Below, piece after piece: positions 2,931-20,200 of a stretch of 22,979 nucleotides of DNA (its first letter is position 1; the number at the start of each line of letters is the position of its first letter). Both the position numbers and the translations under genes were made by a program. The stretch covers positions 1-22,979 of IMG/VR virus record IMGVR_UViG_3300010160_000236, one strand, 5' to 3'. The stretch is from a virus. The notes under the pieces were generated by a model. The model was not told the DNA's origin and searched no databases. It saw only the letters and a list, made by a program, of their open reading frames with translations.

Positions 2931-2934
2931 AAAT

Positions 2935-2954: not shown

Positions 2955-2978
2955 AAATCATCATAGGAGAATTAACTT

Positions 2979-4263: not shown

Positions 4264-4265
4264 CA

Positions 4266-4721: not shown

Positions 4722-4743
4722 TCAGTTTGCTCAAACTACCACT

Positions 4744-4777
4744 AATAGGCCTTAAATAAAACAAGGCCTATTTTTTT
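4744..4777 (+). terminator. Rho-independent terminator after uvsY
   Basis: AATAGGCCTT (4744-4753) is a perfect inverted repeat of AAGGCCTATT (4763-4772), with a 9-base loop and a T-tract at 4771-4777. It ends the recombination operon just before the next promoter. Confidence 0.93.
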
Positions 4778-4785
4778 CTATTGTC

Positions 4786-4814
4786 TTGACTTATGGCTAT
4801 CAATACACTACAAT
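4786..4814 (+). promoter_or_regulatory. Sigma70-like promoter placed for a leaderless mRNA
   Basis: TTGACT (4786-4791), a 17-base spacer and TACAAT (4809-4814) make a near-consensus host-type promoter directly after the uvsY terminator. The -10 box ends six bases before the ATG at 4821, so transcription should begin on or next to the start codon. No Shine-Dalgarno sequence is present upstream of that ATG. Confidence 0.75.
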
Positions 4815-4820
4815 TACTAT

Positions 4821-6023
4821 ATGACCACCGTTGATAAATTATTACTAAAAATTGTAAACCACAATAGTCCAACTATTGAAGAAATATTGGCAAAAAGAGA
4901 CAGCAGAGTCTTACGAAGTCTTGCAACTGCAATTTCTAGTAATGTGTTTATTACCGAAAACCAATCAAAGCTGTTGTTGAAAATTCTTGTCGAAAATTGT
5001 GAAAAATTTGAGATTTTTAAAGATGAAATTTTAGAGACAATTAAGGCTCCGGCGTGGTCACAACGATTTAGATTCATCGAGCAAGTGAGAAAATTTTATA
5101 TTGGCAAAGATTTAGAGCACGAGCCTTGCTTGGTTTTAGAATTTACGTTTAGTTCGCAAATTCGTAAAATTTTGCAAAATTTGTCAAAAAATCTCGAAAA
5201 TTTCACTCAACGAAATCCTGGTAAAAATTACGAAGCCGACCTCACAGAGCATAATCTTGTGATGCTTTACGAGGCTTTAGACAAATTAAACTTTGATATC
5301 GATGAAACCATAAAAACTCACTATGCCACCATAAAATCATGGTCAAAAGCTGATTTTGAAAACCAGTTTTTAATCACAGCCATGTCCAGTCAGAATTTTG
5401 TCAAACACATTACCGCTGATTTAGGCATTGAAACACCTGCTGACAGCATATTGATTAATGACCGAAGCAAACGATATCAGTATTTTCTAAAAAATGACGA
5501 AAAAAGTGAAAAATACGAAAATTCACTAATTTCCACAATTTCAAACAGATCAGGCTCCCGGGTGTGGATTGACAAAACTCAGTATTCTTTGATTAAAATC
5601 TTAGATACGTTGGTTGAACTAAAGCGATTGCCATTGATGGTTATTTTCGATAGTAGGGATGAAGCAAAAAACCTAAAAAACCTAAATTTACTGAATAATG
5701 CACTGGAAATTTGTGGTATCGATAACGACATAGGAATTTATTTTAGATTGCCCAACAGCGAAACTGGTATAAAATTTAATCAATTGATTGGTGAGAAAAA
5801 ATACAATTCACCACTAGACAGTGACACAAAAATAGTAGGAGTTCAGAGTGGAAAAATCCCTAAATTTTTCCTTTCCAACACATGGAAGCCAATGAGTGTT
5901 ATTGTGTTAGATAATGTCATGGGAATGCGACACGGCAAAACAGCAGTGTATACAAATTGTTGTGATTTGATTTTAGAATATTCCGACACTGCTCCAATAG
6001 TGGAAAAACACATTTTATCATGA
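4821..6023 (+). CDS. Conserved hypothetical protein upstream of uvsW
   Basis: This 400-residue product is the first gene of a transcription unit and overlaps uvsW by an ATGA junction, so the two are probably made together. The N-terminal half is helical and rich in Lys, Asn, Leu and Phe. The C-terminal half alternates predicted strands and helices (LPLMVIFDSRD, NDIGIYFRLP, KIVGVQSGKIPKFFLS, PMSVIVLDN), suggesting an alpha/beta Rossmann-like fold. No Walker A, helicase or nuclease motif is visible. The 5' half of the gene is strikingly rich in AAAATT/AATTTT runs. I do not recognise a characterised family. Linkage to UvsW suggests a partner in branch migration or origin-to-recombination switching, but this is inference. 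Confidence 0.85.
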   Translation: MTTVDKLLLKIVNHNSPTIEEILAKRDSRVLRSLATAISSNVFITENQSKLLLKILVENCEKFEIFKDEILETIKAPAWSQRFRFIEQVRKFYIGKDLEHEPCLVLEFTFSSQIRKILQNLSKNLENFTQRNPGKNYEADLTEHNLVMLYEALDKLNFDIDETIKTHYATIKSWSKADFENQFLITAMSSQNFVKHITADLGIETPADSILINDRSKRYQYFLKNDEKSEKYENSLISTISNRSGSRVWIDKTQYSLIKILDTLVELKRLPLMVIFDSRDEAKNLKNLNLLNNALEICGIDNDIGIYFRLPNSETGIKFNQLIGEKKYNSPLDSDTKIVGVQSGKIPKFFLSNTWKPMSVIVLDNVMGMRHGKTAVYTNCCDLILEYSDTAPIVEKHILS

Positions 6024-7486
6024 CTGTAAAAATAGTAATCAGAGACGAAGTTAATATCAAACTAGAAGGTTTGCAGTTAGATGCTAGGAAAAAATTAACT
6101 AATACATTCAAGTATGAAATTCCGTATGCAAGATATCATCCAGCATACAAGTTGGGTCGTTGGGACGGAATGGTCAGTATGTTTGGCCTGGGCGGCAACG
6201 GATATCTTAGTCAGTTAGAAACAATACTTGACGTGTTGGCTAAAATGGGTGTGGGGATAGACGAAGTAGAAGATTTACGCACTACTCAACAGATTAATTT
6301 TATACCAGTAACAGAAACCTACTGGGCAGACTTGGGTAAAGTATGGCCCACAGGACATCAGCAAGCTGGACAACCTATTATGTTGCGTGACTATCAAGTT
6401 GAGGCAATTAATACATTTTTAATCAACACACAAAGTCTACAAGAAATTGCCACAGGTGCTGGCAAAACAATCACAACAGCAACATTAAGTCATCTTGCAG
6501 AAAAATATGGTCGTACAATAACTATTGTTCCTAATAAAAGTCTAGTAGAACAAACAGAAGAAGACTTTATTAACGTAGGGCTTGATGTGGGTGTTTATTA
6601 TGGAGATCGCAAGGATCTTAACAAGACACATACTATCTGTACTTGGCAAAGTCTTAATATTTTAGACAAAAAGAGTAAAAATCACGAGCATGATATTGTT
6701 ACTCTTGCAGAATTCCTAGATGGAGTTAAGACAGTTATTGTTGACGAAGTACACATGGCAAAGGCTGAAGTATTAAAGAATTTACTCACTCAAAACTTGT
6801 GTAATGCTCCAATTCGTTGGGGTTTAACTGGAACTGTACCAAAAGAAAAATTCGAATACGAACAAATTTTTGCAAGTATTGGACACGTGGTGGGCGGAAT
6901 TAAAGCACATGAATTACAAGACATGGGTGTACTTAGTGCATGCCATGTTAATGTTGTGCAAATGGTTGACTTACCAGAATTTAAAGCGTATACTGATGAA
7001 TTAAAGTATCTTGTCACTGATGAAGACAGGATGATTTATATTAGCAAATTAATTAAGAAAATATCTCAATCAGGCAACACACTGGTCCTAGTAAACAGGA
7101 TAGACTCAGGCAAATTTTTAATAAATGAAATTGAGGACAGTGTTTTTATTTCAGGTGAAGTAAAAACCAAAGATCGGAAAGAAGAGTATGACGAAATTAA
7201 AACATCTACTAACAAGATTATTGTGGCGACTTACGGTGTGGCCGCTGTGGGTATTAATATCCCTAGGATTTTTAATTTGGTTCTTCTGGAGTCCGGAAAG
7301 AGCTTTACAAGGGTTATACAATCAATTGGCCGCGGTATTCGAAAAGCCGAGGACAAAGATTTTGTACAAATCTGGGACATTACCAGTACCTGCAAGTATG
7401 CTAAACGGCACCTCACCGAAAGAAAGAAATTTTACAAGGAAGCCAAATATCCATTTACATTAGAAAAAGTGGATTGGTCAAAATAA
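6020..7486 (+). CDS. uvsW: ATP-dependent DNA/RNA helicase UvsW
   Basis: UvsW is an SF2 helicase that unwinds R-loops and moves branched recombination intermediates, shutting down origin replication in favour of recombination-dependent replication. The product has 488 residues (T4 about 500). A small N-terminal domain (residues 1-115) with YARYHPAYKLGRWDG is typical of UvsW. Then come the Q-like motif (MLRDYQVEAI, 121-130), Walker A TGAGKT (145-150), motif II DEVH (242-245), motif III LTGT (269-272) and motif VI QSIGRGIRKAED near residue 440. All SF2 motifs are intact. It starts inside the stop of the upstream orphan gene. Confidence 0.95.
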   Translation: MTVKIVIRDEVNIKLEGLQLDARKKLTNTFKYEIPYARYHPAYKLGRWDGMVSMFGLGGNGYLSQLETILDVLAKMGVGIDEVEDLRTTQQINFIPVTETYWADLGKVWPTGHQQAGQPIMLRDYQVEAINTFLINTQSLQEIATGAGKTITTATLSHLAEKYGRTITIVPNKSLVEQTEEDFINVGLDVGVYYGDRKDLNKTHTICTWQSLNILDKKSKNHEHDIVTLAEFLDGVKTVIVDEVHMAKAEVLKNLLTQNLCNAPIRWGLTGTVPKEKFEYEQIFASIGHVVGGIKAHELQDMGVLSACHVNVVQMVDLPEFKAYTDELKYLVTDEDRMIYISKLIKKISQSGNTLVLVNRIDSGKFLINEIEDSVFISGEVKTKDRKEEYDEIKTSTNKIIVATYGVAAVGINIPRIFNLVLLESGKSFTRVIQSIGRGIRKAEDKDFVQIWDITSTCKYAKRHLTERKKFYKEAKYPFTLEKVDWSK

Positions 7487-7492
7487 GGAATT

Positions 7493-7999
7493 ATGCAGAT
7501 ATTAACATTAGATAACACAACGTTTTCATTGAACAATTTACCAGAGGAGGTTGACGAAAATACCAGATTTGCAGTGCTAGACAACAGTGATGCAAACGAA
7601 CCAGATTTTTTCTTCATGCCATTGATATTCTTAGAAAGTTTTAATGCACCTGCAATGGTTCTTAAAATTGGAGACGATGAAGTTGCAATGCCATTAGATT
7701 GGAGTATTGCAGTTGGCGATAGTAGTTGTGCTAGTGACATTGAAATTTTACCATTAACCAGTTTGAATGACAGAGGTTTTGAAGCATTGATTTTTAACCC
7801 GTTAAGCAGTTTTAGAGTAGAATTTAAAAAGATTGAGATTGTGAATTTTTACAATGATGTTAAATGGTATTTTCCTAAAATGAAAAATGGACAACTGTTA
7901 GCAACTCCTACTAGATTTGGACACAAGCCAGATTGTGCATATTTTGTCAAAGAAATCAGCAGACAAAGTGAAATTATACAATTGGATAAAATATTATGA
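7493..7999 (+). CDS. Hypothetical protein, 168 residues
   Basis: The start is supported by AAGGA five bases before the ATG. The protein appears globular and beta-rich, with a low-charge acidic N-terminus (PEEVDENTRFAVLD) and a conserved-looking core (PLDWSIAVGD, FEALIFNPLSSFRVEFKKIEIV, VKWYFPKMKNGQLLATP). The C-terminal PTRFGHKPDCAYFV segment contains a His and a Cys but no complete metal site. Its stop overlaps the start of the oxygenase gene (ATGA), so the two are coupled. I do not recognise a family; partner of the oxygenase or of UvsW are both open possibilities. Confidence 0.8.
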   Translation: MQILTLDNTTFSLNNLPEEVDENTRFAVLDNSDANEPDFFFMPLIFLESFNAPAMVLKIGDDEVAMPLDWSIAVGDSSCASDIEILPLTSLNDRGFEALIFNPLSSFRVEFKKIEIVNFYNDVKWYFPKMKNGQLLATPTRFGHKPDCAYFVKEISRQSEIIQLDKIL

Positions 8000-8622
8000 C
8001 ATTAAAAGTAGCATACTTTCAACCAGTAGTGCTTGCCATTGATCAAGTACCTCCGGTTGAATTTAGTAAAATATATGGTCTAGCAGAAAATTTACACAGC
8101 CACCCAGAATTAAATGACAGCGGAAATCCGTTCCTCAGCATTAGGGGAGGACAACAGATTCAAGTATATCCTAATAAGATGAATTTAGATATTGGCTGGC
8201 TAATACACTGGCTTGAAAATATATGTAATGGGTATCTTGAATTAATTACTGCACAAAGTGGAACTGAGGAATTGAAATACTGTAAAGCCACCGTAACAAG
8301 CATATGGACCATTCGCCAGTACCAAGGAGATTATCAAGAAATGCATAGTCATCCAGGCGGAGATCTAAGCGGAAACATTTATATAAGTTCGCCTGAAATG
8401 CAAGAAAATTCGTCACCCAGTGATGGTCAAATATTTTTTAGGTTGCCGTTCACCAAAGACATTAGTAAATTTATTATGAATGATAATTGGAAATACGATC
8501 CTGTAGCCGGAACTGTAATTCTATTTCCAAGTCATTTGCCGCACACGGTGTATCCCTGGAAAGGCACAGGTCACCGGACGGTGATGGCCTTTGACGCAAA
8601 ACTAGTACCTCGAGAAAAATAA
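7996..8622 (+). CDS. Putative 2OG-Fe(II) oxygenase
   Basis: The 208-residue product matches the phage-enriched 2OG-Fe(II) oxygenase family (2OG-FeII_Oxy_5 type). The core reads EMHSHPGGDLSGNIYIS (residues 115-131), with an H-x-H..D cluster. This is followed by the distal pattern GTVILFPSHLPHTVYPW (172-188), with H180/H183, and then HRTVMAFD (193-200) holding the 2-oxoglutarate-binding Arg194. The three iron ligands and the Arg are therefore all present, which suggests an active enzyme. Such enzymes hydroxylate proteins, nucleic acids or small molecules using oxygen and 2-oxoglutarate; the substrate is not known. The gene lies in the replication/recombination unit, coupled to the preceding unknown gene. 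Confidence 0.82.
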   Translation: MTLKVAYFQPVVLAIDQVPPVEFSKIYGLAENLHSHPELNDSGNPFLSIRGGQQIQVYPNKMNLDIGWLIHWLENICNGYLELITAQSGTEELKYCKATVTSIWTIRQYQGDYQEMHSHPGGDLSGNIYISSPEMQENSSPSDGQIFFRLPFTKDISKFIMNDNWKYDPVAGTVILFPSHLPHTVYPWKGTGHRTVMAFDAKLVPREK

Positions 8623-8623
8623 T

Positions 8624-8911
8624 ATGGGGTCGCTTAAACCTGGGGCAACTTATATATATGAACGTAACGGCGAGGAAATTTATGCTCGAGAATTTGGCGA
8701 GACTGAACGTAAACTAATTGGTTACAAGTACGAAATGGAAGATAAACCTGATCCCCGAACTGAAGACGGAAGACCGTTGATCGAACACATACGAGAAAGT
8801 AAATTGTGGGGTGATATTCATAGAGAGGCGAAAACCAATCCCACTTTACAAAAGGCCTTGGATCGTGCTATAATGATATACAAACTAAGTAAGGATAAAA
8901 TTCGTGAGTGA
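8624..8911 (+). CDS. Conserved small hypothetical protein, 95 residues
   Basis: The ATG follows the oxygenase stop by one base and has no clear Shine-Dalgarno, so translation probably depends on coupling. The N-terminus KPGATYIYERNGEEIYAREFGE and the tail IHREAKTNPTLQKALDRAIMIYKL resemble a small protein I recall as widespread in marine T4-like phages and still uncharacterised. It ends with a predicted helix and overlaps the next gene by eight bases. An internal promoter for the next gene lies within its 3' part. Confidence 0.8.
   Translation: MGSLKPGATYIYERNGEEIYAREFGETERKLIGYKYEMEDKPDPRTEDGRPLIEHIRESKLWGDIHREAKTNPTLQKALDRAIMIYKLSKDKIRE
8845..8874 (+). promoter_or_regulatory. Internal sigma70-like promoter with extended -10
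   Basis: TTTACA (8845-8850), an 18-base spacer and TATAAT (8869-8874), preceded by TGC, form a strong extended -10 promoter inside the 3' end of the 95-residue gene. The predicted transcript would start near 8881 and carry AAGGA (8891-8895) before the GTG at 8904. Being inside a coding region, it could be chance. Confidence 0.45.
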
Positions 8912-9383
8912 TAAAATTGAACTAAAGGAAAAACTGTCAGCAGTGGATCAGAATGTTCGAGAATTCTGGGACGCAATGGATGCTGACCAGCAAAAATCAT
9001 TAAAGAGCGAATACTTTATTCTTAACAGATATGTCAGTAGTGTGCAAGGTCAAAAACAAGATATACAAGAACATTTTGTATTAACTGTTAACGAATACTT
9101 TAATAAGAATTGGAATCTACTGCAAAAACATCCTAAATTAATGTGGTTGTTATTGTGTATGTGTAGCTATAACGGCGATAAAGTATTCTGGCACGAATGG
9201 ATTGGGCACAAGAAAAAGGCTGACGGTAACAGCAAACGAACTAAGTTTTTAGAAGAACTTTATCCAAATAAAAAAAGAGATGAGATTGAATTACTAAGCA
9301 AGATAAGTACAGATAAAGAAGTAAAAGACCTAGCACGTAAATATGGTATGGACGAAGCAACGATAGCTAAAAAATTAAAATGA
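8904..9383 (+). CDS. Possible clamp-loader small subunit (gp62-like)
   Basis: The product has 159 residues from a GTG start, with AAGGA nine bases upstream. It is all-helical in appearance: an N-terminal EFWDAMDADQQKSL, a central LTVNEYFNKNW followed by KHPKLMWLLLCMCS, then a Lys-rich stretch and LEELYPNKKRDEIELLSKIS. The KHPKL-WLL...LYP-K-DEI-LL pattern resembles proteins I remember being annotated as clamp loader A (T4 gp62) in marine T4-like phages. gp62 joins gp44 to load the gp45 sliding clamp, but genes 44 and 45 are not in this window. The family call is from memory of the pattern, so moderate confidence only; the gene itself is secure. Confidence 0.55.
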   Translation: MSDKIELKEKLSAVDQNVREFWDAMDADQQKSLKSEYFILNRYVSSVQGQKQDIQEHFVLTVNEYFNKNWNLLQKHPKLMWLLLCMCSYNGDKVFWHEWIGHKKKADGNSKRTKFLEELYPNKKRDEIELLSKISTDKEVKDLARKYGMDEATIAKKLK

Positions 9384-10072
9384 TGTCGTTAATAGATAAA
9401 AATTATGTTTGTCAATATTGTGGTAACAAGTATTCTAAGGAAAAAACCTTAGCAGTACATGTTTGCGAACAGAAACGTAGAGCGTTGGCTAAAACAGAAA
9501 AACACGTTATATTAGGCTATGATACATACAACAGATTTTACAGAAAAACGCAAAACAGTCGGCAGGATAAAACATATGAGGAGTTTGCTAAAAGTCCTTA
9601 TTATAATGCTTTTGTTAAGTTTGGCAGTTTTGTTAGTAATGTTAATCCTTTATATCCGGAACGATTCATTGACTGGATTGTGGTTAGCGGCGCAAAATTG
9701 GATCACTGGTGTAGAGACGAACTTTATACCGAATATGTTTTAAACCTTATTAAAACTGAAACTGTAGAGACTGCATTGCAACGTAGTATTGGTCACATGA
9801 TGACGTGGGCAGAGAATAATAATAGTGCATGGAATCATTATTTTTTGTATGTGAGTTTAAGTAGAGCATGTTATGATATTAAAGATGGTAAAATTAGTCC
9901 GTGGCTAGTATTAAATTGTAACAGTGGAAAAGACATGCTTAAAAAATTTAATGATGAACAATTGGATTCTGTCAGCACAATAATTGATTTACCATTTTGG
10001 CTTCATAAATTTAAAAGACTACCTGCTGATGTAGAACTTGTTAAACAAGTAACTAAGGAATCGAATTTATAA
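9380..10072 (+). CDS. Conserved protein with N-terminal C2HC zinc finger
   Basis: The start overlaps the upstream stop (ATGATG..TGA). Residues 11-29 read C-x2-C-x12-H-x-C (CQYCGNKYSKEKTLAVHVC), a compact zinc finger of the kind that binds nucleic acid or protein. It is followed by a basic EQKRR. The rest (230 residues total) is a long conserved-looking domain with many aromatic residues (YEEFAKSPYYNAFVKFGSFV, ERFIDWIV, KLDHWCRDELY). I recall homologues in marine T4-like phages without known function. Its gene overlaps the start of the PolIII-alpha-like gene by one base, suggesting a functional pair, which is inference. Confidence 0.85.
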   Translation: MMSLIDKNYVCQYCGNKYSKEKTLAVHVCEQKRRALAKTEKHVILGYDTYNRFYRKTQNSRQDKTYEEFAKSPYYNAFVKFGSFVSNVNPLYPERFIDWIVVSGAKLDHWCRDELYTEYVLNLIKTETVETALQRSIGHMMTWAENNNSAWNHYFLYVSLSRACYDIKDGKISPWLVLNCNSGKDMLKKFNDEQLDSVSTIIDLPFWLHKFKRLPADVELVKQVTKESNL

Positions 10073-10641
10073 TGCCTGATATTGACATTGACTTTGCTGA
10101 CAGAACCGAAGCTTTGGAAAAGTTTAAACATGTCACGGCTGTGCTTGAAACAGATAAAAAACACAATACAGGCATATATTGTACAGCTATCCCATACAAT
10201 CCCATAACTGGTTTAAGTACCATCGATTACAAAACAGCAGAGGATAGAGGATATTTTAAAATAGATTTTTTGAATGTAAGTGCCTACAACGGTGTGAGAA
10301 ATAAAGAACATTTAACTCAACTACTGGAGACTGAGCCATTATGGGATCTACTAGAACAAGACGACTTTACCCAGAACCTATTCCATGTGAATGGGCATGG
10401 GTCTATTCTGAGACAAAGCAAGCCAAAGTCTATAGAGCAGTTGGCCGCAGTACTGGCGATGATCAGACCCGCGAAACGTTATCTGATTGGGAAAGATTGG
10501 ACTACGATTATGAACGAGGTTTGGATTAAACCCGAGAATGAAGATTACTATTTTAAGAAAGCACATGCTGTTGCTTATGCGGCAGTGGTGGTAGTACAGA
10601 TGAATTTAATATGTGAGCAAGTTAGTTACGGGTTTAGTTAA
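10072..10641 (+). CDS. Miniature PolIII alpha (DnaE)-like protein
   Basis: This 189-residue protein carries scattered hallmark blocks of bacterial DNA polymerase III alpha in the right order. MPDIDIDFADR (1-11) matches the palm motif PDFDxDF with the two catalytic Asp (here D3 and D5). KHNTGIYC (30-37) resembles the KHAGGV block. TIDYKTAEDRGYFKIDFLNV (50-69) matches the QFDK...GLVKFDFLGL block holding the third catalytic Asp (here D65). KPKSIEQLAAVLAMIRPAK (117-135) matches the fingers block with its RPG motif. KKAHAVAYA (162-170) matches KSHAAAYA. PHP, thumb, tau-binding and most finger segments of the roughly 1160-residue enzyme are absent. Function unknown: it could be a decoy, inhibitor, or nucleotide/DNA-binding relic. 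It is coupled to the zinc-finger gene by TAATG with AAGGAA upstream. Confidence 0.8.
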   Translation: MPDIDIDFADRTEALEKFKHVTAVLETDKKHNTGIYCTAIPYNPITGLSTIDYKTAEDRGYFKIDFLNVSAYNGVRNKEHLTQLLETEPLWDLLEQDDFTQNLFHVNGHGSILRQSKPKSIEQLAAVLAMIRPAKRYLIGKDWTTIMNEVWIKPENEDYYFKKAHAVAYAAVVVVQMNLICEQVSYGFS

Positions 10642-11012
10642 CGAACTTTACGTACTAATTGAACACTTTTACGTTTTACACGTTTTAATGTTAAATTCAT
10701 CAAATTAACAACCGGACCTAGTACTATACGTGTATCTTTGCTGTTGAATGTTTTAACAGCATAAGAAAACACATATATTTGATCTTTGCAAAATATGTTG
10801 ATAGGGAATTGTCGGTTACTTTCCCACCACCAAGTTTCGCCTATTTCTAAAAATAAGGTTCTTTCTTCGGGTGTTTTGATAGCATTTAAATCGTAAAAAC
10901 TTGTGACAAATTGATCTTGATTTATAATGATACCCACGTATTCTTCTTCGCCGTAATTTATTACACTAATGAAGGGTAAGGTTTGTTCTATATTGTCGCG
11001 TAGTTTTGCCAT
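10638..11012 (-). CDS. Conserved hypothetical protein, only minus-strand gene
   Basis: A 124-residue product starting MAKLRDN at the ATG complementary to 11010-11012. A longer frame starts at 11069, but the late box TATAAATA on the minus strand (11064 to 11057) would place the transcript start near 11051, so the shorter start fits better. An AGGAG sits 16 bases upstream, farther than usual. The body has FISVINYGEEEYVGIIINQD, ETWWWESNRQFPINIF and a very basic end (LKRVKRKSVQLVRKVR) suited to nucleic acid or acidic-partner binding. I recall similar uncharacterised proteins in marine T4-like phages. It converges on the PolIII-alpha-like gene, and the two stop codons overlap. Confidence 0.8.
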   Translation of the reverse strand: MAKLRDNIEQTLPFISVINYGEEEYVGIIINQDQFVTSFYDLNAIKTPEERTLFLEIGETWWWESNRQFPINIFCKDQIYVFSYAVKTFNSKDTRIVLGPVVNLMNLTLKRVKRKSVQLVRKVR

Positions 11013-11018
11013 AAATAC
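11010..11018 (+). promoter_or_regulatory. T4-type late promoter, plus strand
   Basis: CATAAATACTATT starting at 11010 differs from the T4 late consensus TATAAATACTATT at the first base only. The predicted start site is near 11023, giving a 16-base leader that begins with AAAGGA (11023-11028), 10 bases before the ATG at 11039. The box overlaps the start codon of the minus-strand gene. Confidence 0.85.
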
Positions 11019-11038
11019 TATTAAAGGACTCCTGTGAG

Positions 11039-11875
11039 ATGCAAAAAATTTCAAGTTATTTATATCCAAATAGAATTGAACTATTAGCCAATCTGGCAGG
11101 ATTTACAACGGAGTATACAAACGTGTATCAACGACAAATAAAAATTTACAATGGTATAGATAATACCCTAGAGTTTGATATCAAGAATGCTGATCAAAAG
11201 CGAATTGACTTGACAACACTTACTAACATCAGTTTAAATGTCATGGACATGGCTGGTAATGCACTGCCTAACAGTCCTTATAGCATTACTCCAATGACAC
11301 CACAAACTACCTACAAAGGGCTGGCTAGCACGGTTATTCCAGAAGATGATCTAGCAGATTTAAATCATCAATTTTTAACATATAGCGTAACTGCTGTGAA
11401 AAATGGTGCGGATGTAATGCTGTATGCAGACAGTAGATTTGGTGCAAAAGGCAAAATAGAAGTGGTTGGTGATGCATTACCAACATTCAGAGATGATGTG
11501 GTTTATGACAGATTCAGCGGAGAAATTGACTTGCAAGGCAATGTCAAAAATCATACCAGTGCAATACCATGTAAATTTTACGAAGCAGTTGCCACAACTG
11601 AAATGGGTTTTGAAGTAGCTATGACTAATTATATTGGAACCATTTACATACAAGGCACTAAGGACAGCACTATCAGTGTAGAGTCTTTCAAAAATGCAGT
11701 TTCATTACAATCTTGGACAACTAGTGTGGCAACTACAACTACACGTATTTTTAGCAATATTCCTGTGGGTGATTACAACTATTTTCGTGTGGTTTGGACA
11801 TATATTGATCCAGTATTGATTGGTGTTAATAACACATATCCAACCGGAACTGTTGACAAAGTAACTGTATATTAA
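11039..11875 (+). CDS. Putative late virion-associated protein, 278 residues
   Basis: It is expressed from a near-perfect T4 late promoter with a short leader, which implies a structural or assembly role. The protein is beta-rich, low in Cys and Lys, with many Thr, Asn and Val. Recognisable stretches include YQRQIKIYNGIDNTLEFDIKNADQKRIDL near the N-terminus, which looks like an immunoglobulin-like or baseplate/tail strand pattern, and DDVVYDRFSGEIDLQGNV in the centre. No catalytic motif is seen. It is isolated from the other late genes, lying between two replication units. The consensus promoter of the primase gene overlaps its last codons. Family not recognised. Confidence 0.8.
   Translation: MQKISSYLYPNRIELLANLAGFTTEYTNVYQRQIKIYNGIDNTLEFDIKNADQKRIDLTTLTNISLNVMDMAGNALPNSPYSITPMTPQTTYKGLASTVIPEDDLADLNHQFLTYSVTAVKNGADVMLYADSRFGAKGKIEVVGDALPTFRDDVVYDRFSGEIDLQGNVKNHTSAIPCKFYEAVATTEMGFEVAMTNYIGTIYIQGTKDSTISVESFKNAVSLQSWTTSVATTTTRIFSNIPVGDYNYFRVVWTYIDPVLIGVNNTYPTGTVDKVTVY
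11057..11064 (-). promoter_or_regulatory. T4-type late promoter, minus strand
   Basis: The minus strand reads TATAAATA from 11064 to 11057, an exact match to the T4 late box, about 45 bases before the ATG of the minus-strand gene. The expected start is near 11051. The plus strand here codes YLY in the opposing gene, so chance occurrence is possible. Confidence 0.5.
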
Positions 11876-11882
11876 GTATAAT
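11853..11882 (+). promoter_or_regulatory. Consensus sigma70 promoter for primase, leaderless layout
   Basis: TTGACA (11853-11858), an 18-base spacer and TATAAT (11877-11882) match the host housekeeping consensus at all twelve positions. The -10 box is five bases before the ATG at 11888, so the mRNA should start at or one base from the A of ATG. No Shine-Dalgarno sequence can exist in such a transcript. The -35 lies inside the end of the preceding late gene. Confidence 0.85.
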
Positions 11883-11887
11883 GTGCT

Positions 11888-12880
11888 ATGAGCCTCATAG
11901 CCGATACACTAAGACAATATCTTCCAGGAAAGCGTAAAACTACTCCAAGTGGTTGGATTAGCTTTAATGCTGTCTGTTGCGACGACAAACGACAACGTGG
12001 TGGCTTTATCGTTAATGCCGGCGATGCTATCAGCTATCACTGTTTCAATTGCGGGTTTAAATGCAGTTGGCAACCAGGCAGACATATCAGTCAAAAAATG
12101 AATAAGTTCATGCGGGATTTAAATATTCCAGATGATGTTATTGCACAACTTAGACTGGAAGCACTTAGACTAGACGACTCTAGTACAACAGAAATTCGAA
12201 CTATTATTCCAAAGTTTGACACTAGAGCATTGCCTTTGGATGCTATTAGCTTTGAAGAGTTGACTACATTTTTGAAACTTCCAGATGGCGACTATGCAGT
12301 TCCAACAAAGTTTGCTGAGTCAGTTGCATACTTGATTGAAAGGAAAATTGATCCGTTTGCGTATCCGTTTTACTGGACTAACAAGGTGGGATTCAACAGC
12401 AGAATCATTATTCCGTTCTTGTATAAAGGTGAAATAGTTGGATGGACTGCTCGTGCTATTAATGATGCTAAACCTAAATATTTGAGCGAACAACAACCTG
12501 GGTATGTGTTTAACTTAGATGCACAATCTGACGAAAGAGAATTCGTAATTATCAGCGAAGGCCCCTTTGACGCACTAAGTATTAATGGCTGTGCTTTGTT
12601 AGGCGCAGAAATAAAAGACAGTCAAAACTGGTTATTAAAACAGTTAGGTAAAGAACTTGTACTAGTACCTGACAGAGATGAAGCAGGCAAACTAACGTTA
12701 GAGCAGGCAGTTGAATATGGTTGGAGTGTTAGTATGCCCGACTGGCCGGAGGGTGTTAAAGATATTAATGATGCTGTAGTCAAGCTGGGCAAACTTGCTA
12801 CACTATGGCTTGTTGTATCAGCAAAAGAATCAAACGGTTTAAAAATACAATTGCGAGCAAAAAAATGGTTCAAAGAATAA
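11888..12880 (+). CDS. gp61: DNA primase, T4 gp61 family
   Basis: gp61 makes RNA primers for the lagging strand in complex with the gp41 helicase, also encoded here. The 330-residue product (T4 342) has an N-terminal zinc-binding region: CC at residues 28-29, then YHCFNCGFKCSW around 50-61. The first T4 CxxC pair reads NAVCC, so one ligand may be shifted. The C-terminal TOPRIM domain has IISEGPFDAL with the catalytic Glu near 224 and LVPDRDEAG with the DxD at about 262-264. Between them, NSRIIIPFLYKGEIVGWTAR is typical of phage primases. It is the first gene of a unit that continues through a 38-residue ORF and the carbamoyltransferase. The start is fixed by the promoter directly upstream. 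Confidence 0.93.
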   Translation: MSLIADTLRQYLPGKRKTTPSGWISFNAVCCDDKRQRGGFIVNAGDAISYHCFNCGFKCSWQPGRHISQKMNKFMRDLNIPDDVIAQLRLEALRLDDSSTTEIRTIIPKFDTRALPLDAISFEELTTFLKLPDGDYAVPTKFAESVAYLIERKIDPFAYPFYWTNKVGFNSRIIIPFLYKGEIVGWTARAINDAKPKYLSEQQPGYVFNLDAQSDEREFVIISEGPFDALSINGCALLGAEIKDSQNWLLKQLGKELVLVPDRDEAGKLTLEQAVEYGWSVSMPDWPEGVKDINDAVVKLGKLATLWLVVSAKESNGLKIQLRAKKWFKE

Positions 12881-12981
12881 TTAATATACTGTTGTCCCCG
12901 TGGCACAAGTGGCAAGAACATCGTGCCTTTAAAAAACGTTTAGAAGAGTTACGGAAAAGAGATCCGTTCATCTACAAATGA
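12865..12981 (+). CDS. Small ORF bridging primase and carbamoyltransferase, 38 residues
   Basis: The ATG at 12865 lies 16 bases inside the end of the primase gene. The stop TGA (12979-12981) overlaps the next ATG (12978), so the ORF exactly fills the gap between two real genes. The product starts MVQRIINILLSPWHKWQEH and ends LEELRKRDPFIYK. It has a short hydrophobic N-terminal helix followed by a highly basic helix, suggesting a small amphipathic or membrane-associated peptide. I recall near-identical peptides in marine T4-like phages, which supports a real gene. Function unknown. Confidence 0.7.
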   Translation: MVQRIINILLSPWHKWQEHRAFKKRLEELRKRDPFIYK

Positions 12982-14462
12982 TTTCCTGGGGAATATCAGC
13001 TAATAGTCACGACGCGGCCTTGGCTGTGTTTTGTGACGAAAAACTAGTGTTTGCCAGTCACAGTGAACGATTTAGCGGCGTAAAAAATGATAGAAATTTA
13101 TCCACAGGGCTGTTATCTCATGCTATGAGTTTTGGTGAACCTTCTTGTGTGTATTGGTACGAGAACCCGTATCTTAAAACTGCAAGACAATTATTTGCAG
13201 GCCAGGGGTGGAAATGGCAAGACAACAATATTAAGAAGTATTTAAAGAACTATAGAATTAATTGTCCCATAACTTATGTAAATCATCATAAGAGTCATGC
13301 GGCAGCAGGATACTACACAAGTGGATTAGATAATGCCGCAGTTGTTGTGTTAGATGCTATTGGAGAATTTGCCACATACACCTTATGGGAAGGTAATGGT
13401 AATGTGTTAAGAAAAATATCTAGTTTAGACTATCCTAACAGTTTGGGATTATTTTATAGTGCGATGACGCAACGTTGTCATTTAAAACCCAACGAAGAAG
13501 AATATATCTTGATGGGTATGAGTGCTTACGGTAATCCTAATAAACTTATTAGAGATATACTTGACGACTTTGTTAGTTTGCCAAACGATGACTATCAACA
13601 CGCATTTAGAATCAAAGAAAATTTACATCGAGGGTGCCAATCGTGGCGTCCTGATTTAGTTATTAACGACACATTTGACATTGCGGCCGCAACACAAGTT
13701 GTGTATGAAATGGCGTTTGAAAGAGTATTACAACAAGCCGCTAGTATGACTGGGTCACGTAATCTAGTACTAATGGGTGGATGTGCATTGAATTGTTTAG
13801 CCAATAGACTTACTGGAAAATACTTTGATAAAACATGGATATACCCCAATCCTGGTGATGCAGGCAGTGCAATAGGAGCAGTGCTGGCAAAACACCCTAA
13901 CTGGAAACAGCATACTGATTGGACTAATCCATTCTTAGGATACAATATTAAAGGTAGTTCATCTAATGAAGAAATTGTAGAATATATTGTACAAAATAAA
14001 ATATGTGGACTAGCCCGTGGTCCAGCAGAGTTTGGCCCTCGTGCATTGGGCAATCGAAGCTTATTAGCAGACCCTAGAGGCAACGATATTAAGGATTTAG
14101 TAAATGCAATCAAACAGCGACAAGAATTTAGACCTTTTGGTCCAGCAATACTTGAAGAACATGTGGACATGTACTTTGATATGCCTTGTGGTTGGAGTAC
14201 TAGTAGGTATATGCAAGTGGTCGCTCGTTGCAGGCATCCTAGCTACTATCCTGCCATTGTGCATCGTGATGGAACTAGCCGTGTACAAACTGTACCAAAC
14301 GATGGAAGCCCGTTTAGAAAACTCTTAGAACTTTGGTATGCACAAACAGGATGTCCTATGTTACTCAATACAAGTTTGAATATCAAAGGCAAGCCTATGG
14401 TAAATGACCACGCAGATGCAAGAAACTTCGAGAGCCAATACGGTGTTAAAGTGTTTAATTAA
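12978..14462 (+). CDS. Carbamoyltransferase, NodU/CmcH/TobZ family
   Basis: These enzymes move a carbamoyl group from carbamoyl phosphate, through carbamoyl-AMP, to a hydroxyl of a sugar or similar acceptor. The 494-residue product has both domains. The N-terminal ASKHA-like part has WGISANSHDAALAVF (4-18), the metal-binding HHKSHA (103-108), VVLDAIGE (123-130), LMGMSAYG (178-185) and MGGCALN (266-272). The C-terminal part has ARGPAEFGPRALGNRSLLADPR (346-367) and IKQRQEFRPFGPAIL. All look intact. It is shorter than typical bacterial members (about 550-600). Placement between primase and helicase suggests modification of phage DNA or a nucleotide precursor; capsule or LPS modification is an alternative. 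Acceptor unknown. Confidence 0.92.
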   Translation: MISWGISANSHDAALAVFCDEKLVFASHSERFSGVKNDRNLSTGLLSHAMSFGEPSCVYWYENPYLKTARQLFAGQGWKWQDNNIKKYLKNYRINCPITYVNHHKSHAAAGYYTSGLDNAAVVVLDAIGEFATYTLWEGNGNVLRKISSLDYPNSLGLFYSAMTQRCHLKPNEEEYILMGMSAYGNPNKLIRDILDDFVSLPNDDYQHAFRIKENLHRGCQSWRPDLVINDTFDIAAATQVVYEMAFERVLQQAASMTGSRNLVLMGGCALNCLANRLTGKYFDKTWIYPNPGDAGSAIGAVLAKHPNWKQHTDWTNPFLGYNIKGSSSNEEIVEYIVQNKICGLARGPAEFGPRALGNRSLLADPRGNDIKDLVNAIKQRQEFRPFGPAILEEHVDMYFDMPCGWSTSRYMQVVARCRHPSYYPAIVHRDGTSRVQTVPNDGSPFRKLLELWYAQTGCPMLLNTSLNIKGKPMVNDHADARNFESQYGVKVFN

Positions 14463-14466
14463 AGTG

Positions 14467-14472
14467 TATAAT
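14467..14472 (+). promoter_or_regulatory. -10 box directly before the helicase gene
   Basis: A perfect TATAAT (14467-14472) lies five bases before the ATG at 14478, the same layout as the primase promoter. A -35 match is poor (TGTTAA at 14444-14449 with a 17-base spacer). No Shine-Dalgarno precedes the ATG. It is probably an extra leaderless start for helicase inside the replisome unit. Confidence 0.5.
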
Positions 14473-14477
14473 ATAGT

Positions 14478-15956
14478 ATGAGTGAAAATAAAGATAAAGC
14501 AAGACAAAACGTTGATTACGGATACGATATTCAGCGTGTGTATTTAGAAATGATGTTGGCAGATGCTGGTACGTTTGTGCGTTGCCAAAGCATCTTTGAC
14601 AGTAAACTGTTCGATAGAAAACTACAAGATCCAGCAGAATTTCTAACCAAATATGTGACTGAAAATAATGTGTTGCCTACACCAGATATTTTAAATGCGG
14701 CCACTGGCAGTAATTTAAAAGCGGCTACGGATTTGCGTGAAGAACATTTTGAATGGCTAATGAATGACTTTGAAACATTTACCAGACACAAAGGACTTGA
14801 ACGTGCTATTCTAGAAAGTGCAGACTTGTTAGAAAAAGGTGAGTATGGTCCGGTAGAAGAAAAGATTAAACAGGCAGTACAAGTTGGTTTACAACGAGAC
14901 ATGGGTACAGATTATTTTAAAGATCCTCGTGCTCGTCTAATGGCTATTAAGGATAAAAATGGACAAATTTCTACAGGTTGGAAGGCAGTTGATGACAAGT
15001 TGTTTGGAGGCTTTAACCGCGGCGAGCTCAACATTTGGGCAGGTGGTAGCGGTGCTGGTAAATCCTTATTCTTGGCTAATCTTGGTGTCAACTATGCTCT
15101 TGCTGGATATAATGTAATCTATCTAACACTTGAATTGAGTGAAGAATTGGTTAGTATGCGAGTGGATGCAATGGTAACTGGCATACCCACTAGGGAGATT
15201 TTTAAGAATCTTGATGATGTGGAAATGAAAGTTAAGATGATTGGAAAGAAGTCGGGACAGTTCCAAGTCAAGTACATGCCCAGTGGCAAAACAGCCAACG
15301 ACATTCGTGCATATTTAAAAGAGTATGAGATCAAAATGGACCGTAAAGTTGATGTATTACTAGTTGACTACATGGACTTGTTAATGCCATTGAGCAAGCG
15401 CATCAGTGCTGAAAACTTGTTTGTTAAAGACAAGTATGTAAGTGAAGAATTACGTAATCTTGCAGTAGAAAAGAACTGTGTGTTTGTTACTGCGGCACAA
15501 TTGAATCGCGGTGCTGTTGAAGAAGTAGAGTTTGATCATAGCCATATCTCTGGTGGGTTAAGTAAGATTCAGACAGCAGATAATGTGTTTGGTATCTTTA
15601 CAAGTCGTGCTATGCGTGAGCGTGGACGGTATCAAATCCAACTGATGAAAACTCGTAGCAGTAGCGGTGTTGGTATGAAAATTGATTTGGAGTTCAACAT
15701 TGATACGTTACGTATTACGGATCTTGAACAAGAAGATACTTATGGTAGTGGTCAAGCCAGTGCTGGCTCAAGTTTACTCAACAGTATCAAACAACGACAA
15801 ACTGTTGCGGCTGATGACGCTGGAGGAACCAGTGCTCCGTGGGAACGTGCAAGTCCTGTAGAAGGATTTGACCTGGCCAAGCCAAAGATCAAAGCTGAAG
15901 TTGCTGGCAGTAAATTGAGAGAACTGTTGAACAACTTGCCTGGAGATGATGTGTAA
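14478..15956 (+). CDS. gp41: Replicative DNA helicase, T4 gp41/DnaB-like
   Basis: gp41 is the ring helicase that drives the fork on the lagging strand and binds the gp61 primase. The product has 492 residues (T4 475). A helical N-terminal domain (about 1-145) is followed by the RecA-like domain: STGWKAVDDKLFGGFNRGELN (165-185), Walker A AGGSGAGKS (188-196), the Walker B strand VDVLLVDYMDLL (291-302), then AAQLNRG and SHISGGLSKIQTADNVFGI with the Arg-rich C-terminal motif (MKTRSS). The C-terminal tail is Ala/Gly-rich and ends in LRELLNNLPGDDV. It lies 15 bases after the carbamoyltransferase stop. Confidence 0.95.
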   Translation: MSENKDKARQNVDYGYDIQRVYLEMMLADAGTFVRCQSIFDSKLFDRKLQDPAEFLTKYVTENNVLPTPDILNAATGSNLKAATDLREEHFEWLMNDFETFTRHKGLERAILESADLLEKGEYGPVEEKIKQAVQVGLQRDMGTDYFKDPRARLMAIKDKNGQISTGWKAVDDKLFGGFNRGELNIWAGGSGAGKSLFLANLGVNYALAGYNVIYLTLELSEELVSMRVDAMVTGIPTREIFKNLDDVEMKVKMIGKKSGQFQVKYMPSGKTANDIRAYLKEYEIKMDRKVDVLLVDYMDLLMPLSKRISAENLFVKDKYVSEELRNLAVEKNCVFVTAAQLNRGAVEEVEFDHSHISGGLSKIQTADNVFGIFTSRAMRERGRYQIQLMKTRSSSGVGMKIDLEFNIDTLRITDLEQEDTYGSGQASAGSSLLNSIKQRQTVAADDAGGTSAPWERASPVEGFDLAKPKIKAEVAGSKLRELLNNLPGDDV

Positions 15957-15987
15957 TCTGAATGTAATTGTATTTTTACATAAGTAT

Positions 15988-15996
15988 AATAAATAC
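15988..15996 (+). promoter_or_regulatory. T4-type late promoter before the GNAT-like gene
   Basis: AATAAATAC at 15988-15996 fits the late box set seen elsewhere here (NTAAATAC). The predicted start is near 16001, giving a 20-base leader with AAAGG (16008-16012) before the ATG at 16021. TATAAT hexamers at 15985 and 16000 overlap it. Confidence 0.7.
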
Positions 15997-16020
15997 GCAT
16001 ATAATACAAAGGTAGCGAGC

Positions 16021-16464
16021 ATGGAATTACATCATATCACTGACATTACTGATCCGTTAGTTAGACTAATCAAGGACGATCCAGTACGTCCACATATTCC
16101 ACTTGAGCAACGTATTAACGAAGCCGCAGAAATATTGATCCTCAAAGCAGGAGAAGAAATACTTGCCGCTACCTGTATGCAATGGCTTAAAGATGTTCCT
16201 GAAAATGAACAAGATCTTATTGACATGGGCAAGGATAAAAACATTGCAGTATTTTATACCATATGGAGTTACAGCCCAGGTGCAGGCGCAACACTACTTC
16301 AGCAAGCCGCAAGTTGGTTAAAAAGTGAATTTAAAGACTTAAAAGGTATTGTAACACTAAGTCCGCAAACAGAAATGGCAAAAAGATTTCATCTTAAAAA
16401 CGGTGCTAAAATCCGTAAAGAAAATCCAACCAGCGTTAATTACGAATATTATTTCAAAGAGTAA
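16021..16464 (+). CDS. Putative GNAT-fold acetyltransferase, 147 residues
   Basis: The ATG at 16021 is chosen because AAAGG lies nine bases upstream and a late promoter precedes it; an upstream in-frame ATG at 15946 overlaps the helicase gene and lies before the predicted transcript start. The protein has the strand-helix order of small GNAT enzymes: EAAEILILKAGEEILAATCMQWL, then FYTIWSYSPGAGATLLQQAASWL in the place of the acetyl-CoA pyrophosphate loop (the usual Q/R-x-x-G-x-G/A becomes SPGAG), and LSPQTEMAKRFHLKNGAKI near the C-terminus. I recall similar proteins in marine T4-like phages. The fold call is tentative and the substrate is unknown. Late expression suggests a role in virions or late host takeover. 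Confidence 0.6.
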   Translation: MELHHITDITDPLVRLIKDDPVRPHIPLEQRINEAAEILILKAGEEILAATCMQWLKDVPENEQDLIDMGKDKNIAVFYTIWSYSPGAGATLLQQAASWLKSEFKDLKGIVTLSPQTEMAKRFHLKNGAKIRKENPTSVNYEYYFKE

Positions 16465-16468
16465 AACG

Positions 16469-16477
16469 GGTAAATAC
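16469..16477 (+). promoter_or_regulatory. T4-type late promoter before the fibre-like gene
   Basis: GGTAAATAC (16469-16477) keeps the TAAATAC core. The predicted start near 16482 gives a 17-base leader with AAAGGA (16485-16490), eight bases before the ATG at 16499. The box lies in the left arm of a 9-bp inverted repeat. Confidence 0.65.
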
Positions 16478-16498
16478 TAGTTATAAAGGACTAGTATT
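16473..16498. repeat. 9-bp perfect inverted repeat across a late start site
   Basis: AATACTAGT (16473-16481) and ACTAGTATT (16490-16498) are perfect complements separated by eight bases (TATAAAGG). The left arm is part of the late promoter and the right arm abuts the ATG at 16499. Because the predicted start is about 16482, only the right arm would be in the mRNA, which favours a DNA-level site over an RNA hairpin. Confidence 0.75.
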
Positions 16499-17218
16499 AT
16501 GAAAACCGAGCATAGCATTAAATTAGAAGCAAAAAATGCTGTTGATTTAGACAGACTGTCCTACAGTTCTGGAATGGTTGTCTATGACGTAGACTTAGGA
16601 AGTTTACGAATAATGGACGGAGTTAACCAGGGCGGAAGTACCCTTGCTACACGAGCCTGGACTTTAGGTACTATAAGTTCATTAGGAATCGGCAACGGCA
16701 CCCAGACTGTTACCGCCGGTTCTTACTTAACAGGTGGTGGTTCTTTTACTGCTAATCAAACAAATAATAGCTCTATAACACTAGCTGTTGATGCTACCGA
16801 TGCAAACACAGCTTCTAAAATTGTTGCTCGTGATGCAAGTGGCAATTTTAGTGCTGGCACTATTACAGCCGCACTAACTGGTAATGTTACTGGTAATCTA
16901 ACTGGTGCAGTAACTGGCAACGCTAGTACTGCAACAACCCTACAAACAGCTCGTACTATCAACGGTGTCAGTTTCAACGGTTCTGCAAATATTACCGTAT
17001 CTGCCAGCGCAACTACGTTAACTGGTACTGCATTGAATAGTATTGTAGTTGGTTCAAATCTAACATCAGTTGGAACATTAACTTCGTTAAATGTATCTGG
17101 GGATATTCAAGCTGATTCAAATATAGTATTAAATACTACACCAACAGTAAACAACCATACAACAAATAAAAAATATGTAGACGCAAGATCGGTTGCAATG
17201 TCTATAGCACTAAGCTAA
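16499..17218 (+). CDS. Repeat-rich fibre-like virion protein, 239 residues
   Basis: The N-terminal 50 residues (LEAKNAVDLDRLSYSSGMVVYDVDLGSLRIMDG) resemble the attachment domain of phage fibre-like proteins. They are followed by Gly/Thr/Asn/Ser-rich sequence with repeats such as GNVTGNLTGAVTGNASTATT (residues about 125-145) and NGVSFNGSANITVSA. That pattern, with the tail TPTVNNHTTNKKYVD, is frequent in long tail-fibre and adhesin proteins of marine phages. Cys is absent. It is driven by a late promoter and is followed 16 bases later by the giant structural gene. Probable role: tail fibre or decoration component; direct evidence is only composition and repeats. Confidence 0.75.
   Translation: MKTEHSIKLEAKNAVDLDRLSYSSGMVVYDVDLGSLRIMDGVNQGGSTLATRAWTLGTISSLGIGNGTQTVTAGSYLTGGGSFTANQTNNSSITLAVDATDANTASKIVARDASGNFSAGTITAALTGNVTGNLTGAVTGNASTATTLQTARTINGVSFNGSANITVSASATTLTGTALNSIVVGSNLTSVGTLTSLNVSGDIQADSNIVLNTTPTVNNHTTNKKYVDARSVAMSIALS
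17128..17136 (+). promoter_or_regulatory. Possible internal late promoter for the giant structural gene
   Basis: ATTAAATAC (17128-17136), extended to TTAAATACTACA, fits the local late box inside the 3' end of the fibre-like gene. The predicted start near 17141 would give a leader of about 94 bases, longer than the others, so confidence is low. Confidence 0.35.
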
Positions 17219-17234
17219 ACGAGGATTAATTTAA

Positions 17235-20200
17235 ATGGCAAAGAAACAAATATCAAATTATAAATTTACACCTGGAAACGTTGTTCCGGATCTTAATTTA
17301 TATCCAAATGCAGCCTATCTACTGGAAGTAAATAAAAAATTTATACAAGAAGAAACTATTGCCTATATTGCTTACAATGCAACAAATAATATTTCACCAT
17401 ATGCGTACTATACCTATAATGCAGAAAAATGCAGAAGAGACGTTAGTTATGTGTTAGAAGGATATCTATCAGATCTCAAACACGGTGGCAATAGACAAAC
17501 AGTTTTTAATGCTCAATACTACTGGATAGGCGGAGTACCGCAAGTAGACGGTGATCGCCAACCCGAGGTTTTTGCACACACATTTATTAAAAATTTAATT
17601 CAAAATTACATTTTAACCAATGCGGCGTTTACTTTTAGACAAACTACATTCACACAAGTTAGAGATAACGCATACGTTGCAGAAGCCGCTGGAAAAACTA
17701 AATTAGCAACTCTTGCTGATATTGTTATCAATGTAATTAATACCGGATTGTCAGTACTACCTGCTGTTGTTTCCAATAGAGGATCGGTTAAATTTCCTGG
17801 ATTTTATAAACTTAAAGATATATTATTAATTACAAATACCAGTCGAAATATTATATATTATAATTTTGCAGACCCTTCTTATAAGGCAGAGATAACCTAC
17901 ACTGAAACATATGACAGTGATTTTCCCGGAGCTTTATATGGCAACGATCGAGTAACCACCATTACATTTGATGTCGACACTAGCACCCACATGGTGACTG
18001 ACAGTATACAAATTTTTGTAGAAGCTAAAGAACAAACAGTTCGTCTTAACAGCATTGCAACAGATGCTATGGAACGTCAAAAAGTTGGTATTCCACAGTC
18101 CATGCTTGACGCTGACTTTGAATACGGACTACAGCCTACCAAGTGGCAAACAATCTCAACAATGCGTAATTATCCTAGCGTGTACGAAATACCAGGTAGC
18201 GATAAAGCAGTAGCATCTGTAGTGTCGGATGCCAGCGTAACAAATACGCCAACAGGTACTGGATCTAGTACTATCACAGTAACAACTACGGCAGCTCACG
18301 GATTCCTAGTAGGCGACGTGTTTACAATCAAAGCATTGGCCAGCAGTGTGTTGGGTTTTGGCCGAGCAGAAGGAACATTTATTGTTGCAAGTGTTCCTAC
18401 AGCAACTACTTTTACTTATTATGCAAAAAATAAAGTAGGAACAAGTAATCCTACACTGTTAAGTTCTAGTTATACTCAACTACGAGCAGGCGGATTTTAC
18501 ACCGGCTCAAGTGTTGGTCAACCTACATTTACTGTTTACTCCAACGGACAAAGCGGAACTATAACAACTTCATTGGCAGTACCTGCTGGCAGTTCATTTG
18601 TTGGTTATACTGGCCCAGCTCCATTAATAGGAAGTCCAGTAACAGGAACCGGCATACCAGCTGGCGCCCAAATATCCGGAGTAACCGGAACTGGCGGAAC
18701 TGTGGCTAGTACCAAACTAAACACAACTGCCAACATTGGAGATACTAGTATAATTGTAACAAGTACTGCAGGTATAGTTACCGGTCTGTTATTAAATAGA
18801 GGTGACGGAGTAGCAGTACAAGTCACAAATATTGTTCAAAATACCTTAACACTATCAGATGCATTAACATCTGCTATTGAGGGCATTACAGCAACATATA
18901 CTAATATCGTACCTAACAGCACAAACGGCTCTGGCTCTGGCGCAACATTTAATATTGCTAGGATAGACACAATTTATTCGGTATCAACAGGTAGCTCAGT
19001 AGGTGGTGGATATGTTGTAGGTGAAGTTATCACAATATCGGGCACAAGTCTTGGCGGCAATCAACCTGGTAATAATATAGATATCACAGTAACTGGAGCA
19101 ACTGGTATAAACTCTGTTGCAACATTTGATGATGCAACACTAGAATATGGATCTGGATATTCATCTGGTTCGGGTGTAGCTACAACTGTTTCTCCCGCAG
19201 GCGGCACAGGATTAACTGTTAATACAGTTGCGCTAGGTGGGGGTGTTCAAGAAATCACGGTACAATCAGCAGGCAGCGGATATGCAATTGGTGATGTGAT
19301 CACTGTGCAAGGTGGCAACTTAGGTGCTAAAATCACAGTATTGACTGTAACTGCTGGCGGAGCAATCACTGCAATATCACACGCTGGCACTCCTGTAGCA
19401 ACTGGCACTGTAAGTTTTATTGGTTCTATAACATTTAGTGATGTTACTACTGGTACTGTGGCAAATGCCGCCACATTGACCTATACATCAATTGCAACTA
19501 TTGAAATACAATTTACATCCCCGCACGGATTTATTCCAGGTGATAGCATAACGACTACTGTAAGTAGTACTGGTGCAAATGCACAACTGGCCGCAGGTGC
19601 ATTTTATGTTGAACAGGTTCCTACTAACACAAGTTTACGATATACTGCCAGAGCACCTGGCATACTAGCAAACACCCTAGTCGGTGTTGTTTACAGTAGA
19701 CCGGACAGTTACTACGTACACAGACCGTTAGATGGTGGCGTTCAACTTGGTACAGGCGGTCCTGCCCACGGTGCGCAAGCAATTCGTATGAGTAAGAAGT
19801 ATATTCGTTACCAATCAGGTAAAGGTATTATGTATAATACCGGAGCCTTATTTGCACCTAGTTATGATATTTTAAGTATTACAGCTTCAGGAACAACTGC
19901 TGGATCAACGATTACTGTTACTATTGACGACGTAGATCACGGTTGTCAAATTGGTGCTCAAATACAAATCAATAATGTTACTACCTCTGGTTATAACGGA
20001 ATTTATACAGTAAGCAATATCGTTGACGAAAGAAGATTACGAGTGATTGCAATAAATGCATTGGGATCAACAACTGGCGAATTAGGTAGTCCATGTCAAA
20101 TGAGTATTCGTGGATGGCACGGTGCAACTGTTCGTTCTGGAACATTTGATGATCAAAACGGTATGTTCTGGCAGTACGACGGTATTCAAATGAGTTTGGT

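Follow-up and report, generated by a model that had tools for sequence, protein, structure and literature searches.

Results

The replication locus and its relatives

The window analysed here is a 22,979-bp IMG/VR fragment whose gene content marks a T4-related jumbo phage, with genes for gp32, UvsX, UvsY, UvsW, a primase, a DnaB-like helicase, a DNA polymerase fragment, and virion and tail proteins (Table 1). Its relatives are contigs and genomes of up to about 345–383 kb, which from the nature of such collections we take to be mostly phages of fresh water. Among cultured phages, the PA5oct-like Pseudomonas phages, Atu_ph07 and Phosso come closest (helicase identity 50–53%), and gene order in the primase neighbourhood is syntenic between these and the window. 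The interval between primase and helicase is occupied in the window by a Nol-like carbamoyltransferase gene, and in relatives by other inserts or none. Searches of Pfam, PHROGs and 50,697 phage records gave no match for the gene that opens the uvsW unit; most relatives carry a gene of similar length before uvsW. DNA polymerase III alpha looks split into a DNA_pol3_alpha fragment and a second polymerase fragment (L275:4644–5153; window 10072–10641).

Table 1. Features of the window discussed in the text
Feature	Position	Strand	Details and evidence
Terminator	4744..4777	+	ATAGGCCTT-loop-AAGGCCTAT, then T run; directly 5' of uvsW-unit promoter; most relatives alike
uvsW-unit promoter	4786..4814	+	TTGACT (4786–4791)-17-TACAAT (4809–4814), then TACTAT and ATG 4821 (6 nt)
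uvsW unit, first gene	4821..6023	+	400 aa; no family match
UvsW-like DNA helicase, second gene of uvsW unit	6020..7486	+	phrog_16, E 9e-74
T4-type late promoter of virion structural gene 5' of primase	11010..11022	+	CATAAATACTATT; sequence, orthologues
Virion structural protein gene	11039..11875	+	phrog_14467, E 2e-5; SD AAAGG; ends 12 nt before primase
Primase -35 box	11853..11858	+	TTGACA; sequence, TTG-type -35 in 39/40 orthologues
Primase -10 box	11877..11882	+	TATAAT, 5 nt (GTGCT) before ATG 11888; sequence, orthologues
17-bp inverted repeat over primase start	11885..11901	+	GCTATGAG-C-CTCATAGC; sequence, relatives' folding and re-pairing tests
DNA primase (T4 gp61-like)	11888..12880	+	phrog_47, E 9e-44; Toprim_2
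Nol-like carbamoyltransferase, between primase and helicase	12978..14462	+	phrog_1601
Helicase -10 box	14467..14472	+	TATAAT, 5 nt (ATAGT) before ATG 14478; sequence, orthologues
Replicative DNA helicase (T4 gp41/DnaB-like)	14478..15956	+	phrog_19, E 1e-68

A first-pass annotation of this window had described promoters set directly against the start codons of the primase, the helicase and the uvsW unit, and direct reading confirmed all of its coordinates for the three layouts. The primase promoter (TTGACA-18 nt-TATAAT) is the top sigma70 match in window positions 1–17,300 (12/12), and for the window helicase promoter a good -35 box was not found on reading the sequence. The same annotation had held that these three starts have no Shine-Dalgarno (SD) sequence and that late genes do. 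This is right for the three starts, but the gp32 (1938) and uvsX (2979) starts carry the SD AGGAG and many late genes of relatives have none. Promoter-like sites in the window number 52, against 51.2 in shuffles; in-window counting therefore proves nothing, and the evidence has to be comparative.

Short promoter-to-start gaps are conserved among orthologues

When the distance between -10 box and ATG was compared at orthologous genes, as the first-pass annotation had proposed, the short gap proved to be kept in primases, helicases and most uvsW-unit genes. A -10 box (at least 5/6) stands 5–8 nt before the ATG in 39 of 40 non-redundant primase starts (26 at 5 nt, 10 at 6, 2 at 7 and 1 at 8); 39/40 primase orthologues also have a TTG-type -35 box at 17/18 nt, and 0/40 have an SD. 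For the helicase the box lies 5–7 nt before the ATG in 34/37 cases (17/13/4), with an SD-like sequence in 3/37. Helicases separated from the primase by other genes have the box 4–8 nt before the ATG in 46/47 loci, and those directly after the primase have an SD and no promoter of their own (2/2 loci). In 31 of 46 non-redundant relatives a -10 box precedes the first gene of the uvsW unit at a gap of 6–7 nt, mostly right behind a terminator. The DNA polymerase III alpha fragment (polIII_N, 170 aa), located elsewhere in the genomes, follows a TTGACA-17-TAAAAT-like promoter at 6–7 nt. We dropped gp46 as a leaderless case, its TATAAT (TATAATAGCCTATGA) encoding the end of the upstream gene.

Promoter-to-start distances are bimodal at genome scale

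We then scanned 1201 gene starts in three long relative genomes, using internal ATGs as controls. The distances from sigma70-type promoters to the ATG are bimodal, with 14 at 5–7 nt, 3 at 8–15 nt and 88 at 16–35 nt. Expressed per nucleotide, this is 4.67 promoters at gaps of 5–7, 0.2–0.7 at 8–15 and 2.2–6.0 at 16–35, against about 0.3 in the control. An SD-like sequence precedes none of the 14 sigma70 genes at gap 5–7, as compared with 79/100 at gap 16–45. Counted over whole genomes, TATAAT-N4-8-ATG was no commoner than its reversed pattern, since the majority of ATGs do not begin a gene; once the count is confined to gene starts with a -35 box, the excess is clear. The fixed distance between -10 box and ATG, the bimodality with its void at 8–15 nt and the loss of the SD together strongly support leaderless transcription. 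Judged by these sequence features, the replication genes very likely have leaderless mRNAs with the predicted starts, so that the leaderless part of the first-pass prediction is well supported; the separation of early from late genes that it attached to this is taken up below.

A conserved hairpin encloses the primase start codon

The gene upstream of the primase has the late-promoter element TAAATA (CATAAATA) 24–29 nt before its ATG in 46/50 loci, and in the window no terminator was found between this virion structural gene and the primase. In RNA, the inverted repeat over the window primase start forms a GCUAUGA/UCAUAGC stem with the loop GCC. The AUG lies within the stem and the upstream part of the 5' arm precedes the predicted transcript start, although AUGA/UCAU (4 bp) could still form in a transcript without a leader. 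Relatives have different repeats across the same ATG, such as AATTAGACT-ATG-AGTCTAATT, ATTAGGCT-ATG-AGCCTAAT and ATAAGGC-ATGA-GCCTTAT. On folding, the AUG was enclosed or paired in 54/54 distinct primase starts, with a mean energy of −8.0 kcal/mol (mean z −2.4) when the upstream arm is present and of −0.9 kcal/mol when the RNA starts at the AUG. The primase -10 box overlaps or abuts the 5' arm of the hairpin, and an RNA initiated at the AUG lacks the upstream part, assuming the predicted start. An outer extension of the hairpin into the -10 box was seen in single folds and is absent from the consensus fold. The starts of the helicase, of gp46 and of the uvsW-unit gene, the last of these behind its terminator, showed no hairpin when folded, and polIII_N shows one only in part.

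Several lines of evidence indicate that pairing at the primase start is maintained. First, when the arms were re-paired among 41 unique combinations, 0/500 reached the observed energy. Second, in 29 gap-free primase sequences 93.7% of cells pair, with slid controls at 45% or less, and the covariation score is 0.219 versus 0.130, with 0/500 shuffles as high. Third, RNAalifold, unprompted, returned the same stem with the same six pairs. Lastly, much of the variation in the hairpin falls at synonymous codon positions and is matched by non-coding bases upstream. Mapped onto the primase tree, the A-U type requires 7 changes, of which supported branches force 6, and an independent-pairs test gave covariation in the expected direction (median p 0.125, with only 5 pairs). 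Recombination could move both hairpin arms together.

The hairpins take at least three shapes, scattered over the primase tree, which suggests that the start region has recombined. In addition, TAAATA-type genes lie upstream of polIII_N (in two genomes) and of two further leaderless-type starts of one related genome (G001) that show some hairpin potential, though the cases are few. A Rv2179c-like exonuclease (L291 13400; G007 153399) has the layout TTGACA-17-TATAAT-5-ATG and a −12.8 kcal/mol fold over its start.

We postulate that in these phages the -10 box is fused to the start codon, and that transcription would begin on, or 1–2 bases from, the A of the AUG. Host-type (sigma70) promoters would in this way yield leaderless mRNAs for the primase, the helicase, the uvsW unit and the DNA polymerase III fragment. 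At the primase, read-through from the late promoter of the upstream structural gene would fold the AUG into the hairpin and leave it untranslated, while the leaderless transcript, without the upstream part of the 5' arm, would present an open AUG. The primase would thus be supplied by its own leaderless promoter, with the hairpin blocking synthesis from late read-through. We put the probability that such a fusion of promoter and start codon is combined with a hairpin lock silencing late read-through at roughly two in three. To the layout, hairpin, covariation and late promoter seen in these genomes, this reading adds a predicted transcript start, temporal class and translational silencing. The temporal gate to which the data point is the hairpin at the primase start, a feature absent from the first-pass annotation.

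The repeat could also be read at the level of DNA: the leaderless starts would be real, and the repeat would serve as an operator for a regulator that closes the promoter. It does overlap the -10 box and start site, a classic operator position, and primase and polIII_N share the half-site TAGGC..GCCTA. However, the arm sequences vary widely among phages while their pairing is kept, and the repeat lies downstream of late genes rather than behind the uvsW-unit terminator. Moreover, mismatches in the primase hairpin are G-U in 10 cases and A-C in 1, a lean that favours pairing in RNA over DNA, where a palindrome should be strand-symmetric. We therefore consider an operator unlikely, if the most serious competitor to the RNA lock.

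Late promoters also lie against start codons

T4 gp55-type late promoters are present in the clade, in the form of a TATAAATA-like element together with a gp55 sigma homologue; this late sigma (phrog_12791) was found in 4/5 related genomes with E 2e-72 or better, and the 266-kb record G007 has no phrog_12791 match. In three related genomes (G001, G002 and G007; loci L248–L297) the late element NATAAATA is enriched 15–33 and 4–8 nt before the ATG. The distribution is again bimodal, with 42 genes at 4–8 nt, none at 9–14 nt and the main group at 15–33 nt, and about a third of late-promoter genes are of leaderless type (42, versus 98 leadered). These 42 include tail tube, PAAR and virion structural proteins, and 7% of them have an SD-like sequence. 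Six ortholog sets show some conservation; four of them keep the spacing in all three genomes, and a gap of 4–5 nt is kept across genomes at virion structural, tail tube and phosphoesterase genes. Across six clade genomes ATAAATA-N4-8-ATG is enriched (109, versus 24 at N9-13). This enrichment was not found in T4 (4 versus 8) or in most cultured jumbo phages, and XacN1 (11 versus 3) and Atu_ph07 (18 versus 8) may share the late leaderless spacing. A literature search found no report of leaderless transcripts from T4-type late promoters.

These counts bear on the claim of the first-pass annotation that the mode of initiation separates early from late translation, with leaderless mRNA as an early-class device acting, for example, via 70S initiation. 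The window by itself would agree with it: all three units comprise genes of replication or recombination under sigma70-type promoters, and the late gene at 11039 has an SD. The 42 late-promoter genes with leaderless spacing in the three relatives, and the SDs of gp32 and uvsX, contradict it, and we regard such an early-class role as improbable. Leaderless starts, as predicted from promoter spacing for about a third of the clade's late promoters, are not an early-only device.

Transcription might alternatively start a few nucleotides upstream of the AUG or inside it, giving very short leaders or non-translatable ends, with protein made mainly by coupled translation of longer transcripts. A 5-nt discriminator is one or two nucleotides below the usual sigma70 optimum, and the preferred sigma70 start, just 5 nt separating TATAAT from the ATG, might come to lie 1–2 nt inside the AUG; in most loci, too, the upstream stop codon lies 6–40 nt before the ATG. 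However, the gaps cluster at 5–7 nt, the SD is lost, and at the primase the hairpin would oppose coupled initiation, and we give coupled translation little credence. That the -10 boxes reflect chance AT-rich matches within short gaps between genes, or are part of upstream coding sequence, is hardly credible: gp46 is exactly such a case and the window has no excess of promoter-like sites over shuffles, but for primase, helicase, uvsW unit and polIII_N this is contradicted by spacing and -35 boxes that persist in dozens of divergent sequences whose upstream genes differ, and by the bimodal excess over internal-ATG controls.

The layout in cultured phages

The primases of PA5oct, MIJ3, XacN1, RAS14 and SCTP-2 have a sigma70-like promoter 6–7 nt before a GTG or ATG, the SCTP-2 and PA5oct cases being tentative; we found no report of this layout at these primases in the literature. 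RAS14 has TTGACG-18-TACAAT-7-ATG, behind a terminator, and XacN1 has TTGATT-18-TATAAT-6-ATG, with TAAATA before the upstream gene. A hairpin of −16.7 kcal/mol covers the XacN1 primase start, an energy reached by 5/500 mononucleotide shuffles, and by its sequence XacN1 supports the predicted hairpin-lock arrangement independently. The PA5oct primase, with its GTG start, has no occluding hairpin. Alignment with RAS14 sets the XacN1 start (L548, 1486) 153 nt upstream of the annotated 1639, and the SCTP-2 start (L302) lies near 1950 as against the annotated 2047; both appear to have been placed too far downstream in the annotation, probably for want of an SD at the true starts. Ordinary leaders precede the primase in Atu_ph07, Phosso, XaC1, CBB, Vibrio 2.275.O, Munch and 121Q. 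In the five cultured relatives checked in which primase and helicase are adjacent (Atu_ph07, Phosso, XaC1, CBB and Vibrio 2.275.O), an SD-like sequence mostly precedes the helicase. Few gamma-proteobacteria are predicted to have leaderless genes, and the Xanthomonadales are among them (PMC3160421).

Discussion

In our estimate the chances are even that one clade of T4-related jumbo phages has promoter–start-codon fusion as a standard option in both the host-sigma and the gp55 promoter classes, joined to start hairpins that restrict a gene downstream of late genes to its own leaderless transcript; this would be a reversal of the T4 lysozyme switch, by which late read-through yields no primase. 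The layout provides a simple sequence-based rule for recognising phage genes overlooked by standard annotation, as with the apparently misplaced primase starts of two cultured phages. It also suggests that replication and virion genes of lytic phages have leaderless translation as a regular and conserved option, and a promoter inside a start-codon hairpin would make a compact two-state translational lock.

Among known systems, the clade's sigma70 promoter-to-ATG distances resemble the measured leaders of Lactococcus cremoris, which are bimodal, being either absent or about 40 nt long, with none of 4–14 nt (PMC10986495). As in Deinococcus-Thermus (PMC12340547) and at other bacterial leaderless genes (PMC3160421), the -10 box stands at a fixed distance of a few nucleotides, the spacing is constrained, the SD is missing and annotated starts are often wrong. 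Unlike those genes, the present ones belong to phages, have a -35 box and occur with sigma70 as well as with T4-late promoters. The lambda cI mRNA is likewise leaderless, with a 5'-terminal AUG (predicted here) and no SD (PMC9031893), but cI encodes a repressor, whereas the clade uses the layout at lytic replication and structural genes, as a conserved set.

The closest parallel to the primase hairpin is found in T4, where the ribosome site is masked on long early transcripts of e, soc and homing endonuclease genes and is freed by a late promoter that lies within the hairpin (PMC3014915, PMC2988022). As at gene e, soc, segB, I-TevI/II/III and Aeh1 mobE (PMC3014915, PMC2988022), a hairpin in the read-through transcript hides the initiation region, and a promoter within the 5' arm gives, here by prediction, a shorter, translatable transcript without that arm. 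An upstream promoter of another temporal class, with no terminator between in the window, is a further shared feature. The T4 switches hide an SD, whereas here the AUG itself is hidden, and the open transcript would be leaderless and come from a host-type promoter. In T4 the locked long transcript is early and the open short one late; judged by promoter type, the order at the primase is apparently reversed.
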